Below are positions 49,548 through 53,978 of a stretch of 64,000 nucleotides of DNA, one piece after another; position 1 is the stretch's first letter; each line of letters starts with the position of its first letter. Location of the stretch: assembly GCF_017742215.1 (NCBI RefSeq), contig NZ_JAGHKP010000002.1:654737-718736 (forward strand), given 5' to 3'. The DNA is from Chitinophaga chungangae. Its GTDB lineage: Bacteria; Bacteroidota; Bacteroidia; Chitinophagales; Chitinophagaceae. The notes beneath the pieces are model-generated. The model was not told where the DNA came from. It searched no databases and saw nothing but the letters and a program-made list of their open reading frames with translations. The position numbers and the translations under genes are program-made.

Positions 49548-52256
49548 TTACATGTCGTATTCAAGGTTGGGGCGAAGCCATCTTTCGGCTTCTTCCAGCG
49601 GCCAGCCTTTTCGCGCGGCATAATCTTCCACCTGGTCTTTTTCGATCTTGCCCAAACCGAAATATCTCGATTGCGGGTTAGCGAAATACCAGCCGCTTAC
49701 GCTCGCCGCGGGGTACATCGCCAGCGATTCCGTGAGCGTGATGCCGGTGGCTTCCGTAGCGTTCAGCAGGTCGAAAAGTTTGTACTTCTCGGTGTGCTCG
49801 GGGCAAGCCGGGTAACCGGGCGCGGGGCGGATGCCGAGATATTCCTCTTTGATCAGCTGGTCGTTGGTAAGGTGCTCGTCTGTAGCGTAAGCCCAGAACT
49901 CCTTGCGCACGCGCTCGTGCAGCAGTTCGGTGAAAGCCTCCGCCAGCCGGTCTGCCAGCGCCTTCAGCATGATGCTGCTATAATCGTCGTGTTCTTTTTT
50001 GAAATGTTCGAGCCATTTTTCGATGCCTTCGCCCGTCGTTACGGCAAAGCCGCCGATGTAATCCTGTTTGCCGGTAGCGGCCGGCGCGATATAATCCGCG
50101 AGGCTGACGTTCGGCTGGCCCGGCGCTTTTTTGATCTGCTGGCGCAGGAACTCGAGGGGCACTTCCGCGCCGTCTATCGCCGTTACGCTCACCGTATCGT
50201 CGGCAATGGCGTTGGCGGGGAACAGGCCGATCACGGCTCTCGCTCTCAGCCATTTTTCGCTGATGATGCGTTTGAGCATTTCCTGCGCTTCGTTGTAGAG
50301 GCGGGTGGCTTCTTTACCCACCACCTCGTCTTCCAATATCTGCGGGAATTTGCCGTGCAGTTCCCAGGCAATGAAGAAAGGCTGCCAGTCGATGTATTTG
50401 GCGATCTCGCCCAGGTCGTAGTTGTCGAACACCTGGGTGCCCAGCTGTGCGGGTTTTACAGGGTTGTACGCCGCCCAGTCGATGTCTACTTTCAGCTTGC
50501 GCGCTTCGGCGATGGGCAGGTATTGTTTGACGGGTTTTTTATTCCTGAACTGCTCGTTCAGTTTGGTGTATTCCGTTTTTACGTCCGAAAGGAAGTTTTT
50601 GCTGAGCGCTTTGTTCAGCAGGTTGCCCGTTACGGTCACGCTGCGGGAAGCGTCCAGCACGTGCACCACGCCGTTTTCGTATTCCGGCGCGATCTTCACG
50701 GCGGTGTGCGTGCGCGAAGTGGTGGCGCCGCCGATCAGCAGGGGAATATCGAACTGCTGGCGTTTCAGCTCCCGGGCGATGTGGACCATTTCGTCGAGGC
50801 TCGGGGTGATAAGCCCGCTGAGACCGATGATGTCCACTTTTTCTTCGCGCGCGGCCTGCAATATCTTTTCCGCGGGCACCATTACGCCGAGGTCCACGAT
50901 TTCGTAGCCGTTACAGCCGAGCACCACGCCCACGATGTTTTTCCCGATGTCGTGCACGTCTCCTTTTACGGTGGCGAGCAATATTTTACCGGCGGATTTT
51001 ATCTCGCCGCCGTTCTTCGCCTGCAGCTCCAGCTTTTCCGCTTCAATGTAAGGCGTAAGCACAGCCACGGATTTTTTCATCACGCGGGCGCTTTTCACGA
51101 CCTGCGGAAGGAACATTTTACCGCTGCCGAAAAGGTCGCCCACGATGTTCATTCCATCCATCAGCGGGCCTTCGATCACTTCCAGCGGGCGGGGATATTT
51201 CTGGCGGGCCTCTTCGGTGTCCGCTTCGATGTAATCGGTAATACCGTTCACAAGGGCGTGGCTGAGCCTTTGCTCAACGGTGCCGGCGCGCCATGCTTCG
51301 TCTTTTTCGACGGTTTTGCCTTTGGCCTTTACGGTTTCGGCAAATGCGATAAGGCGCTCGGTAGCATCTTCGCGGCGGTTGAGGATCGCGTCTTCGCAAA
51401 GCTCGCGCAATTGCGGTTCGATCTCGTCGTAGATCTGGATCATGCCTGCGTTAACGATGCCCATGTCCAGCCCCGCTTTGATGGCGTGGAACAGGAACAC
51501 GGCATGCATGGCTTCGCGCACGGCATCGTTGCCCCTGAAGGAGAACGATACGTTGCTCACGCCGCCGCTGATCTTGGCGAGCGGCATCAGCTGTTTGATC
51601 CGGCGGCAGGCTTCGATGAACTCTACCGCGTAGTTGTTATGTTCTTCAATGCCCGTGGCAATGGCGAAAATGTTCGGGTCGAAAATGATGTCCTGCGGAT
51701 CGTAGCCCACTTTATCGACAAGGATCTTGTACGCGCGGTGGCAGAAGCTCACGCGTTTTTCGAGGGTATCCGCCTGGCCGTTTTCATCGAAGGCCATTAC
51801 GACCACCGAAGCGCCGTAGCTCTGGCAGATAATGGCGTGCTCGATGAACTTTTCCTCTCCTTCCTTCAGGCTGATGGAGTTCACGATACATTTGCCCTGC
51901 AGGCATTTCAGGCCGGCTTCGATCACGCTGAACTTGCTGGAATCGATCATCACGGGGATGCGGGAAATGTCCGGCTCGGAAGCGAGCAGGTTCAGGAAAG
52001 TGGTCATGGCTTTTTCGCCGTCGAGCAGCGCGTCGTCCATGTTCACGTCCAGGATCTGGGCGCCGCTTTCCACCTGCTGGCGGGCTACTGAGAGCGCTTC
52101 TTCAAAATGTCCTTCACGGATGAGGCGGGCAAATTTTTTAGAGCCGGTAACGTTGGTCCTTTCGCCGACGTTGATGAAGTTGGTCTCGGGTCTTACAACC
52201 AGCGGCTCCAGGCCGCTCAGTCTCAGGTAAGGCTTGATCGTTTGCGTATTGTTCAT
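49548..52256 (-). CDS. metH: Methionine synthase, pterin/cobalamin/activation part (split MetH)
   Basis: 902 residues covering the C-terminal three modules of cobalamin-dependent methionine synthase. The pterin-binding domain is at about 20-280 ([20 protein letters not shown]). The B12 cap and binding domains carry [15 protein letters not shown] with the DxHxxG cobalt-ligand motif near residue 434. The AdoMet reactivation domain ends the protein ([16 protein letters not shown] near 809). The homocysteine-binding module is on a separate gene 19 bases upstream. Two-gene MetH occurs in other Bacteroidota, so this is a real split. Confidence 0.95.
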
Positions 52257-52275: not shown

Positions 52276-53292
52276 TTATGCCAGCGTAGTTTCCACTACC
52301 GGCAAGGGGCGCGGGGTAATGGTCTTTACATTTTCAGCGATGTGACGAATGTGATCGGGCGTGGTGCCGCAGCAGCCGCCGACGATATTAACGAAACCCT
52401 CGCGGGCGAAATCTTCGATGATGTGGGCCGTTTCGTGCGGCTGCTCGTCGTACTCGCCGAAGGTGTTCGGCAGGCCGGCGTTGGGGTAGCAGCTAACGTA
52501 ACAGCTGGCGATGTTGGCAAGCTCTTCCACGTAAGGCCTCATCTGTGCACCGCCCAACGCGCAGTTCAGGCCGATGGAGAAGGGTTTGGCGTGCATCACC
52601 GAAATATAGAACGCTTCCAGCGTTTGCCCGCTCAGCGTGCGGCCGGAGGCATCGGTAATAGTACCGGAGATCATGATGGGCAGTTCGGGCCTGCCGCTGT
52701 CCCGGAAATATTTTTTGATGGCGAAGATCGCGCCTTTGCAATTGAGCGTGTCGAAGATGGTTTCGATCAGCAGCAGGTCCGCGCCCGCTTCCGTCAGCGC
52801 TTTCACCTGTTCGTAATATGCGTTCACCACTTCGTCGAAAGTAACGGAGCGGAAACCGGGGTTGTTTACGTCGGGGGAAATGGAAAGCGTTTTGTTGAGC
52901 GGGCCGATGGCGCCTGCAACGAACCTCGGTTTGTCCGGGTTCCGGCGGGTATAATCGTCTGCCGCGCGCCTGGCTACCTGTACGGCGGCCACGTTCATTT
53001 CATAGGCGAGGCTTTGCATATCGTAGTCTGCCTGTGCAATCACGGTGCTGCTGAAGGTATTGGTCTCGATGATGTCTGCGCCGGCTTCGAGGTATTCGCG
53101 GTGAATGGCTTCAATAATGGCCGGCTGGGTGATCGAAAGCAGGTCGCTGTTGCCTTTCACGTCTGTGTGGTAGTTGGCGAATCGTTCCCCCCTGTAATCG
53201 GATTCCTGGAGTTTGTACCGCTGGATCATGGTGCCCATCGCACCGTCAATGATCAATATGCGCTCACGGGCGCATTCCTGTAATGATTTCAT
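52276..53292 (-). CDS. Homocysteine S-methyltransferase module of split MetH
   Basis: 338 residues equal to the N-terminal module of MetH, which transfers the methyl group to homocysteine. It has [10 protein letters not shown] near 18 and a TIM barrel. The zinc-binding Cys appear in [11 protein letters not shown] (near 246) and the Cys pair in [11 protein letters not shown] (near 315). It lies directly upstream of the pterin/cobalamin/activation gene with a 19-base gap, so the two subunits should be made together. Confidence 0.95.
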
Positions 53293-53509: not shown

Positions 53510-53540
53510 TTTGGATAGTCCACAAATCCTATTACATTTG
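53510..53540 (+). promoter_or_regulatory. Perfect Bacteroidota promoter for the leader-peptide unit
   Basis: TTTG (53510-53513), 19-base spacer and TACATTTG (53533-53540): consensus -33 and -7 boxes with consensus spacing. Start is expected near 53546. Confidence 0.65.
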
Positions 53541-53552
53541 TAGGGTAATACA

Positions 53553-53594
53553 ATGGAATCAAAAAAATACAGAAACCAACCGTTTAACTTATAA
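53553..53594 (+). CDS. Candidate leader ORF 1 (13 aa)
   Basis: MESKKYRNQPFNL, starting about 7 bases after the expected transcription start and ending 4 bases before the second leader ORF. Very short, so a chance ORF is possible. Confidence 0.3.
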   Translation: MESKKYRNQPFNL

Positions 53595-53598
53595 CACT

Positions 53599-53658
53599 AT
53601 GGCATTCTCCTACCATCACCGCGCCGCTGCCGGTTGTTGTTCAATGTGCCGCCGGTAA
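53599..53658 (+). CDS. Candidate Cys-rich leader peptide (19 aa)
   Basis: MAFSYHHRAAAGCCSMCRR and stop. Three Cys and a Met lie in the last seven residues. Tiny Cys- or amino-acid-biased peptides in a promoter-proximal leader are typical of ribosome-stalling attenuators. It lies divergent from metH, which fits a sulfur link, but no alternative-terminator structure is clear after it. Confidence 0.45.
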   Translation: MAFSYHHRAAAGCCSMCRR

Positions 53659-53705
53659 TTCAATCCGGGCAGGGAACACATTACAATCACCGAAAATTTT
53701 TAGTC

Positions 53706-53894
53706 ATGAACATTGAGGACGATTTAAGGCAATTAAGCCTCCGGCTGAAAAAGCTGGGACTGGAAGAGGTCGTTGCCGAAAGAAGCGCCCTGAGCGAGTC
53801 CTTCAGGGTCGTTTATGTGAACAAAAACGCTAAAGCCGCAGCGCAGGCGGGCCTCCCGAAAGGGAGCGATAACAAGACTTCCTCTAAGCTGTAG
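53706..53894 (+). CDS. Small protein of unknown function (62 aa)
   Basis: From the ATG at 53706 (the open frame to 53634 adds implausible residues). MNIEDDLRQLSLRLKKLGLE predicts an amphipathic or coiled-coil helix, then a Ser/Lys-rich tail. It contains no Cys and no known domain. It is the only gene in the small transcription unit between a consensus promoter and a strong terminator; the two leader ORFs precede it. Confidence 0.55.
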   Translation: MNIEDDLRQLSLRLKKLGLEEVVAERSALSESFRVVYVNKNAKAAAQAGLPKGSDNKTSSKL

Positions 53895-53943
53895 TTGACA
53901 TAATGCAACAATTGCGTATTCATAACGTGGAATAGTTACCAGA

Positions 53944-53973
53944 GACAGGTGTTTTCGAACACCTGTATTTTTT
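53944..53973 (+). terminator. UUCG tetraloop terminator of the small unit
   Basis: Stem ACAGGTGTT / AACACCTGT with loop TTCG, then ATTTTTTT. It closes the unit 50 bases after the 62-residue gene. Confidence 0.9.
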
Positions 53974-53978
53974 TGCGC

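Follow-up and report, generated by a model that had tools for sequence, protein, structure and literature searches.

A putative cysteine-responsive operon for a small protein and a candidate trans-acting small RNA in the genus Chitinophaga

Described leader peptides and small RNAs and the Chitinophaga unit

In the CIN1 locus of Rhodobacter sphaeroides, a 71-aa protein, CcaF1, is co-transcribed with the downstream sRNAs CcsR1-4, which are followed by a terminator, and protein and sRNAs are often found together in alphaproteobacteria (PMC10253847). Mycobacterial polycysteine leader ORFs located upstream of regulated genes reportedly respond to cysteine (Canestrari et al. 2020, as cited in PMC9094748), and leader-peptide attenuation has been inferred upstream of amino-acid biosynthesis operons in Flavobacterium psychrophilum (PMC9723704). 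The intergenic sRNA GibS of Bacteroides thetaiotaomicron (~145 nt) pairs around start codons through a conserved 5' seed and has targets in carbohydrate metabolism (PMC7366714). In Sinorhizobium meliloti, regulation in trans has been described for the amino-acid leader peptide peTrpL (PMC7298713), and in Bordetella pertussis, the copper-responsive uORF CruR specifies a DUF2946 protein that carries a CXXC and a RAPP motif (PMC9426467).

Here, we describe a unit from Chitinophaga chungangae, located in a 64,000-nucleotide stretch of DNA that was analysed as a whole (hereafter, the window). One transcript would comprise three functional parts, i.e., a Cys-rich leader, a 62-residue protein, and a 3' sRNA reaching down to the terminator. 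As in the CIN1 locus, a small protein of similar size would be co-transcribed with a downstream RNA that ends in a terminator; however, compared with that locus as its source describes it, the Chitinophaga unit has no DUF1127 match above the Pfam/NCBIfam cut-off, a different core, and a Cys leader in front, and its transcript holds one RNA, the related RNAs being unlinked and unaccompanied by the protein. With the mycobacterial ORFs it has in common a short Cys-rich ORF upstream, whereas the Chitinophaga leader is not leaderless, has an orphan protein and an RNA downstream, and is linked to cysteine by a putative response. The F. psychrophilum leaders belong to the same phylum, but the Chitinophaga leader precedes a small protein and an RNA instead. 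GibS, likened here by description and not by sequence, is an sRNA of the same phylum with seed pairing at start codons, although it has neither a leader nor a small ORF as described. The attenuator RNA rnTrpL acts as an sRNA. In the peTrpL case, as far as it is described, the acting molecule is the leader peptide or the attenuator RNA, whereas the RNA proposed for Chitinophaga comes from the opposite, 3' end of the transcript under control.

Leader, 3'-UTR sRNA, seed-sharing sRNAs, and decoy are each of a known kind, with counterparts in CcaF1-CcsR, the mycobacterial polycysteine ORFs, and GibS. Literature searches on Bacteroidetes cysteine leaders and sRNAs, Chitinophaga sRNAs, and seed sponges, judged mostly from titles, yielded no report of the combination or of the RNA family, and we know of no case in which an sRNA from a multi-copy seed family is produced by an operon that begins with an amino-acid leader peptide. 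We lean, with some reserve, towards reading the unit as a cysteine-responsive operon that would make a small protein and a trans-acting sRNA tuning target genes.

The unit and its ultra-conserved 3' RNA

All parts of the unit lie on the + strand. TTTG and TAnnTTTG are the consensus boxes of Bacteroidetes promoters, and the promoter of the unit (53510..53540), read directly from the sequence, consists of TTTG at 53510-53513, a 19-base spacer, and TACATTTG at 53533-53540. A similar arrangement is found in relatives: TTTG-N17-21-TAnnTTTG occurs at most 620 nt upstream of the core in each of 47 loci (L167-L213), and TNTG-N18-20-TAnnTTTG is present in 47 of all 78 unit loci. Thus, the promoter proposed in the preliminary description recurs beyond chance, and the rest of the anatomy given there (19-base spacing, two short ORFs, a 62-codon ORF, a UUCG-loop terminator, and a divergent metH) was also correct when read from the sequence. 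The intrinsic terminator (53945..53973), with a UUCG-loop hairpin at 53945-53966 followed by a T-run, shows pairing preserved by changes on both sides at three of nine pairs in 14 sequences. No internal promoter before the 3' RNA was seen by eye. A shared upstream operator was considered and rejected, as it matched the window (one mismatch) and one site with three mismatches against two control matches.

The first of the two short ORFs, MESKKYRNQPFNL (53553..53594, 13 codons, stop included in the coordinates), had been taken as one of a tandem pair of peptides. Because its ATG is not conserved (present in 1 of the 17 loci of the window's clade, namely the window itself), it is probably not a gene, and it was discarded as a sensor. 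A conserved ACCAACC stretch preceding the leader falls within this ORF; [AG]ACCA[AG]CC occurs in the 5' UTR of all 17 loci of the clade. The same motif (53574-53595 in the window) immediately precedes the core at 16 loci that belong to a different group (L192, L198, and L200-L213), and it is perhaps a translation element or a second pairing element.

The 62-codon ORF (53706..53894) encodes a member of a genus-restricted protein family. It is present at all 78 unit loci, i.e., in 78 of the 79 genus genomes, and residues M1, L10, G18, L19, F33, and N39 are invariant among 38 aligned members. Judged from dN/dS (0.07-0.31 in 10 of 11 pairs, the remaining pair being saturated), the protein is under purifying selection. 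The structural model predicts an alpha-beta-beta-alpha arrangement (mean pLDDT 73, pTM 0.46), for which a structure search of the PDB returned nothing with an E value of 0.001 or below. No Pfam/NCBIfam family matched above its curated cut-off, and the proteins of two relatives gave weak Pfam matches below the cut-off. The earlier label of an orphan protein holds with respect to these databases but not within the genus. A guess modelled on CcaF1 is that the protein may bind the RNA or process it.

With the 3' RNA as an anchor, the unit could be located in 78 of 79 Chitinophaga genomes (one per species); in the exception, G082, two core sites are present, both at the unlinked tandem locus described below. 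Neither the protein (294 genomes of the family) nor the RNA core (298 genomes of the order) was found outside Chitinophaga. A protein profile recovered all six genus members sampled among the 294 genomes, together with two marginal matches (E 0.0056 and 0.0070). A single-sequence protein search with one genome per genus matched 1 of 60, the window's genome only, and is insensitive, as it missed G006, which has the unit (L198). The RNA model gave 12 matches at E 0.01 among the 298 order genomes, six in the genus and six outside, and the core was absent from the matched stretch in all six of the latter. A scan of named records returned 48 stretches, 44 of which were titled Chitinophaga; the other four were one Clostridium, one Bacteroidales, one Flavihumibacter, and one [Flexibacter], with approx. 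two chance hits expected by an estimate from collection size. The Flavihumibacter and [Flexibacter] records correspond in length to contigs of the genus set (G129:C34 and G111:C99).

The N-terminal part of metH (homocysteine S-methyltransferase; 52276..53292, minus strand) is the divergent neighbour of the unit. It adjoins the unit in 75 of 78 loci, and in the other three (L201, L204, and L207) there was no metH match within the fetched stretch. The suggested tie to the methionine synthase genes stands, therefore, as synteny only. In the window, metH is apparently split into ORFs 49548-52256 and 52276-53292, with the homocysteine-binding part (PF02574) separate from the rest; PF02574 comes from a scan of the 52276-53292 ORF. 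comF falls inside the fetched stretch at 21 of 78 loci, a count that depends on differing flank lengths. It adjoins the unit in the window's clade and its nearest relatives and lies ~14-23 kb off in the other species compared.

The most conserved part of the unit is its 3' RNA (53893..53976), which was absent from the preliminary description: the sequence there of a small protein and then a terminator was right as to both parts but passed over an ultra-conserved RNA whose core is common to unlinked loci. Between the window and 11 clade relatives, mean identity is 63% in the 5' UTR and leader, 67% in the ORF, and 60% downstream, whereas 79 nt of the 3' RNA have a mean identity of 99% and are 100% identical in 9 of the 11. 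The covariance model built for this RNA (R1) matches all 79 genus genomes, at the unit or at an unlinked locus. Within it, the core TCATAACGTGGAAT (53920..53933; 14-mer, UCAUAACGUGGAAU) occurs in 2-6 exact copies per genome in 79 of 79 genomes, compared with a total of four matches in the same genomes for a reversed-pattern control. In the stretches compared with Rfam, every family stayed below its gathering score, and there were three unrelated sub-threshold matches at E up to 10. A conserved 3' segment of an mRNA that ends in an intrinsic terminator, as in 3'-UTR sRNAs, is thus present. The 3' RNA would be released from the transcript and act in trans, with a 14-nt core in common with unlinked sRNAs, chiefly those of an often tandem locus.

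The Cys-rich leader

The second short ORF, MAFSYHHRAAAGCCSMCRR (53599..53658, 19 codons, stop included in the coordinates), begins four bases after the 13-codon ORF. Leaders at the other loci were identified by a rule (an ATG ORF of 10-45 codons that ends 38-115 nt before the small ORF and contains at least two Cys), and 69 of 78 loci have a leader satisfying it, with 2-6 Cys each. This count arises partly by construction, as the rule itself selects for Cys. The likeness of whole leaders within clades, e.g., SYHHRAAAGCCYMCR or MQQNDRNIVIYP..MA.HQPSACTPC, does not follow from the rule. At least two Cys are among the last ten residues in 68 of the 69 leaders, and Cys accounts for 282 of their 2150 codons (13%). 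Both codons are used (TGT 149, TGC 133), which indicates that the residue, not the nucleotides, is kept, and the C-terminal Cys cluster stays while the sequence around the leader diverges. The earlier proposal of a Cys-rich leader is borne out at this level. It did not hold in the exact form CCSMCRR: the pattern TGYTGYWSNATGTGYMGNMG was found in 6 of 79 genomes and, among the matches listed, only that of the window is the leader of the unit (the contexts compared were L003, L005, L008, the window, and the own-genome extras L010 and L011, leaving out L006 and L007 on the minus strand). A search for the exact pattern alone would suggest that the leader is not conserved; its homology became apparent through the small protein and the RNA.

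The nine loci without a Cys-rich leader by the rule are L027, L028, L032, L172, L177, L190, L191, L193, and L198. At L027 the reading suggests a frameshift, and its genome is 65% complete; L028 has one Cys on reading, and five of the nine have in common a shortened leader region of 107-108 nt. Because of these nine loci, the leader does not appear to be indispensable. What is found is a short Cys-enriched ORF conserved amid varying surroundings, as in amino-acid leader attenuators. The genes that it precedes are not genes for the same amino acid: the orphan protein and the 3' RNA are downstream, and metH is divergent. By the proposed mechanism, when charged tRNA-Cys is scarce, the ribosome would slow at the terminal Cys codons of the leader and downstream expression would rise.

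How such slowing might be transmitted was considered at the level of RNA structure. A hairpin is predicted at 53630..53692, with the Cys codons as its 5' arm and a 3' arm just upstream of the start of the small ORF. Its folding z-score is -1.5 in the window and on average -2.8 in the window's clade (12 of 16 below -2), and none of 53 other loci falls below -2. Consensus folding of the region between leader and ORF, carried out for two clades, yielded four pairs that show no covariation in one of them and no pairs in the second, a terminator search of the window listed none between leader and small ORF, and no antiterminator was found at the unit, in agreement with the preliminary description, nor was a conserved attenuator structure found outside the window's clade. 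With a modelled stalled ribosome, the accessibility of the start region changes from 0.51 to 0.61 in the window's clade and from 0.54 to 0.53 elsewhere; the model does not discriminate, since a ribosome parked at the stop gives the same result (0.61 in the clade and 0.54 elsewhere).

The unit might also amount to no more than cysteine attenuation of the small protein, with a 3' block that acts in cis only, on stability or termination. A conserved leader, a small protein under purifying selection, and a block that ends in a terminator would all suit such an arrangement. However, it does not account for the presence of the 14-mer in 2-6 copies in every genome, at unlinked loci with other terminators and without leader or ORF, nor does it explain why sequence complementary to the core is found at some start codons and within a transcript beside icmF. 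We therefore regard it as improbable, although it fares best among the alternatives to a trans-acting RNA under cysteine control. Slightly less probable again is that the Cys cluster senses something else than cysteine supply, e.g., copper, zinc, or the oxidation state of the peptide being made, as in CruR. Metal binding is conceivable for clusters of the type CCC, CCPSGCCC, and CNCCC, and the Cys motif of a nascent uORF protein senses copper in Bordetella, where the Cys-containing nascent peptide controls downstream genes (PMC9426467, as far as CruR is described there), as the Chitinophaga leader may. In contrast to CruR, the Chitinophaga leaders vary from 12 to 39 residues, lack a constant CXXC spacing, and in none of 69 loci end in RAPP, and the near-constant metH neighbour suits sulfur amino acids.

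Possible partners of the core

Outside the unit, the core is found mainly at an unlinked locus in which a palindrome, CTAAAACGTTTTAG, and a -7-like box, TATTTTTG, are followed within a few bases by the core and then by a terminator; the terminators differ from that of the unit, and neither its leader nor its ORF is present. In many genomes, a second core copy follows ~130-250 bp on. The palindrome resembles LacI-family operators. In the window's genome, the tandem pair (L246, G000:C1:369000-374500) has cores at C1:371133 and 371364, with the palindrome before the first, and lies between ORFs that we take to be aminotransferase-like and carA-like. Of the exact sites listed, 33 that belong to neither the unit nor the tandem locus were read, and by eye the core is again followed by a terminator in L137, L232, L233, L235, L228, L229, and L237. 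The first four of these form a further core-plus-terminator group in some species (TTTTCATAACGTGGAATTAGA..., then a GC-rich repeat). In the window's genome, an exact core and a one-mismatch complement lie ~3 kb apart (L120 and L127, G000:C1:1610445-1613718), maybe in a prophage, as this region has an ORF that we presume to be RecT-like.

The core is likely an sRNA seed. It would pair with ATTCCACGTTATGA around the start codons of various genes, among them those for outer-membrane importers and for secreted enzymes that degrade glycans, and this pairing would lower the translation of these genes. In 6 of the 33 sites listed, the ATG of the complement starts an ORF of at least 150 codons, against a background in which 524 of the 8394 ATGA within the fetched loci do so (binomial p 0.015). 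The six ORFs comprise a TonB receptor, a NusG-like protein, an FAD oxidoreductase, a SASA esterase, a GFO/IDH/MocA protein, and one without family assignment.

Predicted targets were also sought in 0.86 Mb of the window's genome, from -60 to +20 around 680 predicted gene starts, and compared with permuted seeds, which keep composition and ATG but not natural start-site motifs. A complement of at least 9 nt was found at 11 starts versus 2.22 with permuted seeds (2 of 300 permutations reach 11), of at least 10 nt at 6 versus 0.51 (0/300), and of at least 11 nt at 3 versus 0.15 (1/300). The sense seed gave 1, and the complement inside ORFs gave 1, 0, and 0 at the three lengths. A first run with 200 permutations gave 0/200 at 9 and 10 nt; at a minimum of 8 nt there was no excess in this genome (17 versus 9.73, 27/200). 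The 9-nt threshold was picked from that first run and was fixed beforehand for two further genomes, in which the direction was the same and the excess not significant (3 versus 1.31, 41/300, in G124; 4 versus 1.44, 29/300, in G086).

According to Pfam, the 11 candidates are two TonB receptors, two ThuA proteins (in L329 and L328), an alginate lyase, an HGSNAT-like protein, a phosphodiesterase, a protein with a secretion-sorting tail, a DegT aminotransferase, a resolvase, and one without family. Six of the 11 are plausibly glycan-use genes, and five are of other kinds or without assignment. Genomes of this kind are rich in TonB and glycan genes, so the glycan theme may be partly a matter of base rate. 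The site lies at the ATG in one TonB receptor of the window's genome (L329) and likewise in a similar receptor of G086 (L377). In duplex energy, 0.3% of random segments pair with the 3' RNA of the unit as well as the icmF-side site does, and none of ~2000 random segments pair as well with the tandem-locus RNA. Six sites of the window's genome, each with a single mismatch to the 13-mer, are mixed, some being exceptional (L128 and L127) and some ordinary (L132 and L126, whose energies are reached by ~20% of random segments). A longer piece of the 3' RNA gives lower duplex energies, as raw values without background.

A complement of the core upstream of a gene that we take to be icmF, encoding a B12-dependent mutase, was found in 10 of the 33 sites listed, including the window's own genome (L122, G000:C7:1272966-1272979; also L145, L161, L163, L214, L219, L221, L223, L225, and L226). 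MeaB and B12-binding domains support the name at L122, whereas L226 was recognised by its first residues only. L215 resembles these sites, and icmF is not within its fetched stretch. A GC-rich inverted repeat is seen by eye between complement and icmF in L122, L214, L161, and L163, and the complement looks like part of a separate short transcript. This transcript is a candidate decoy (sponge) RNA, whose complement would occupy the core.

The core of 14 aligned sequences is predicted to form a 5-pair hairpin with an AAC loop, and a similar one is predicted in the tandem-locus RNA; such folding of the core on itself counts against its role as a seed. That the core is instead a recognition hairpin for an RNA-binding protein, which would fit this prediction as well as the perfect conservation, is nonetheless the least probable of the readings considered, as two of the five pairs are U-G, none varies, and the complement at start codons and beside icmF would be left unexplained.

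A possible link between sulfur amino acids and glycan use in Chitinophaga

With the trans-acting reading preferred, we are less sure of cysteine as the signal and of the repression of targets than of the core as a seed. In its widest and most tentative form, this reading, which we consider rather doubtful as a whole, is that the supply of sulfur amino acids is coupled to polysaccharide use by RNA only: the Cys leader would set the level of a 3'-UTR sRNA, its seed would be common to sugar-controlled sRNAs (the tandem locus behind CTAAAACGTTTTAG), the icmF-side transcript would serve as a decoy, and the small protein would be an RNA partner. If true, Chitinophaga would have a genus-wide RNA network with sequence-defined targets, in Bacteroidota beyond Bacteroides and Flavobacterium, and sulfur amino acids would be connected with the degradation of glycans.
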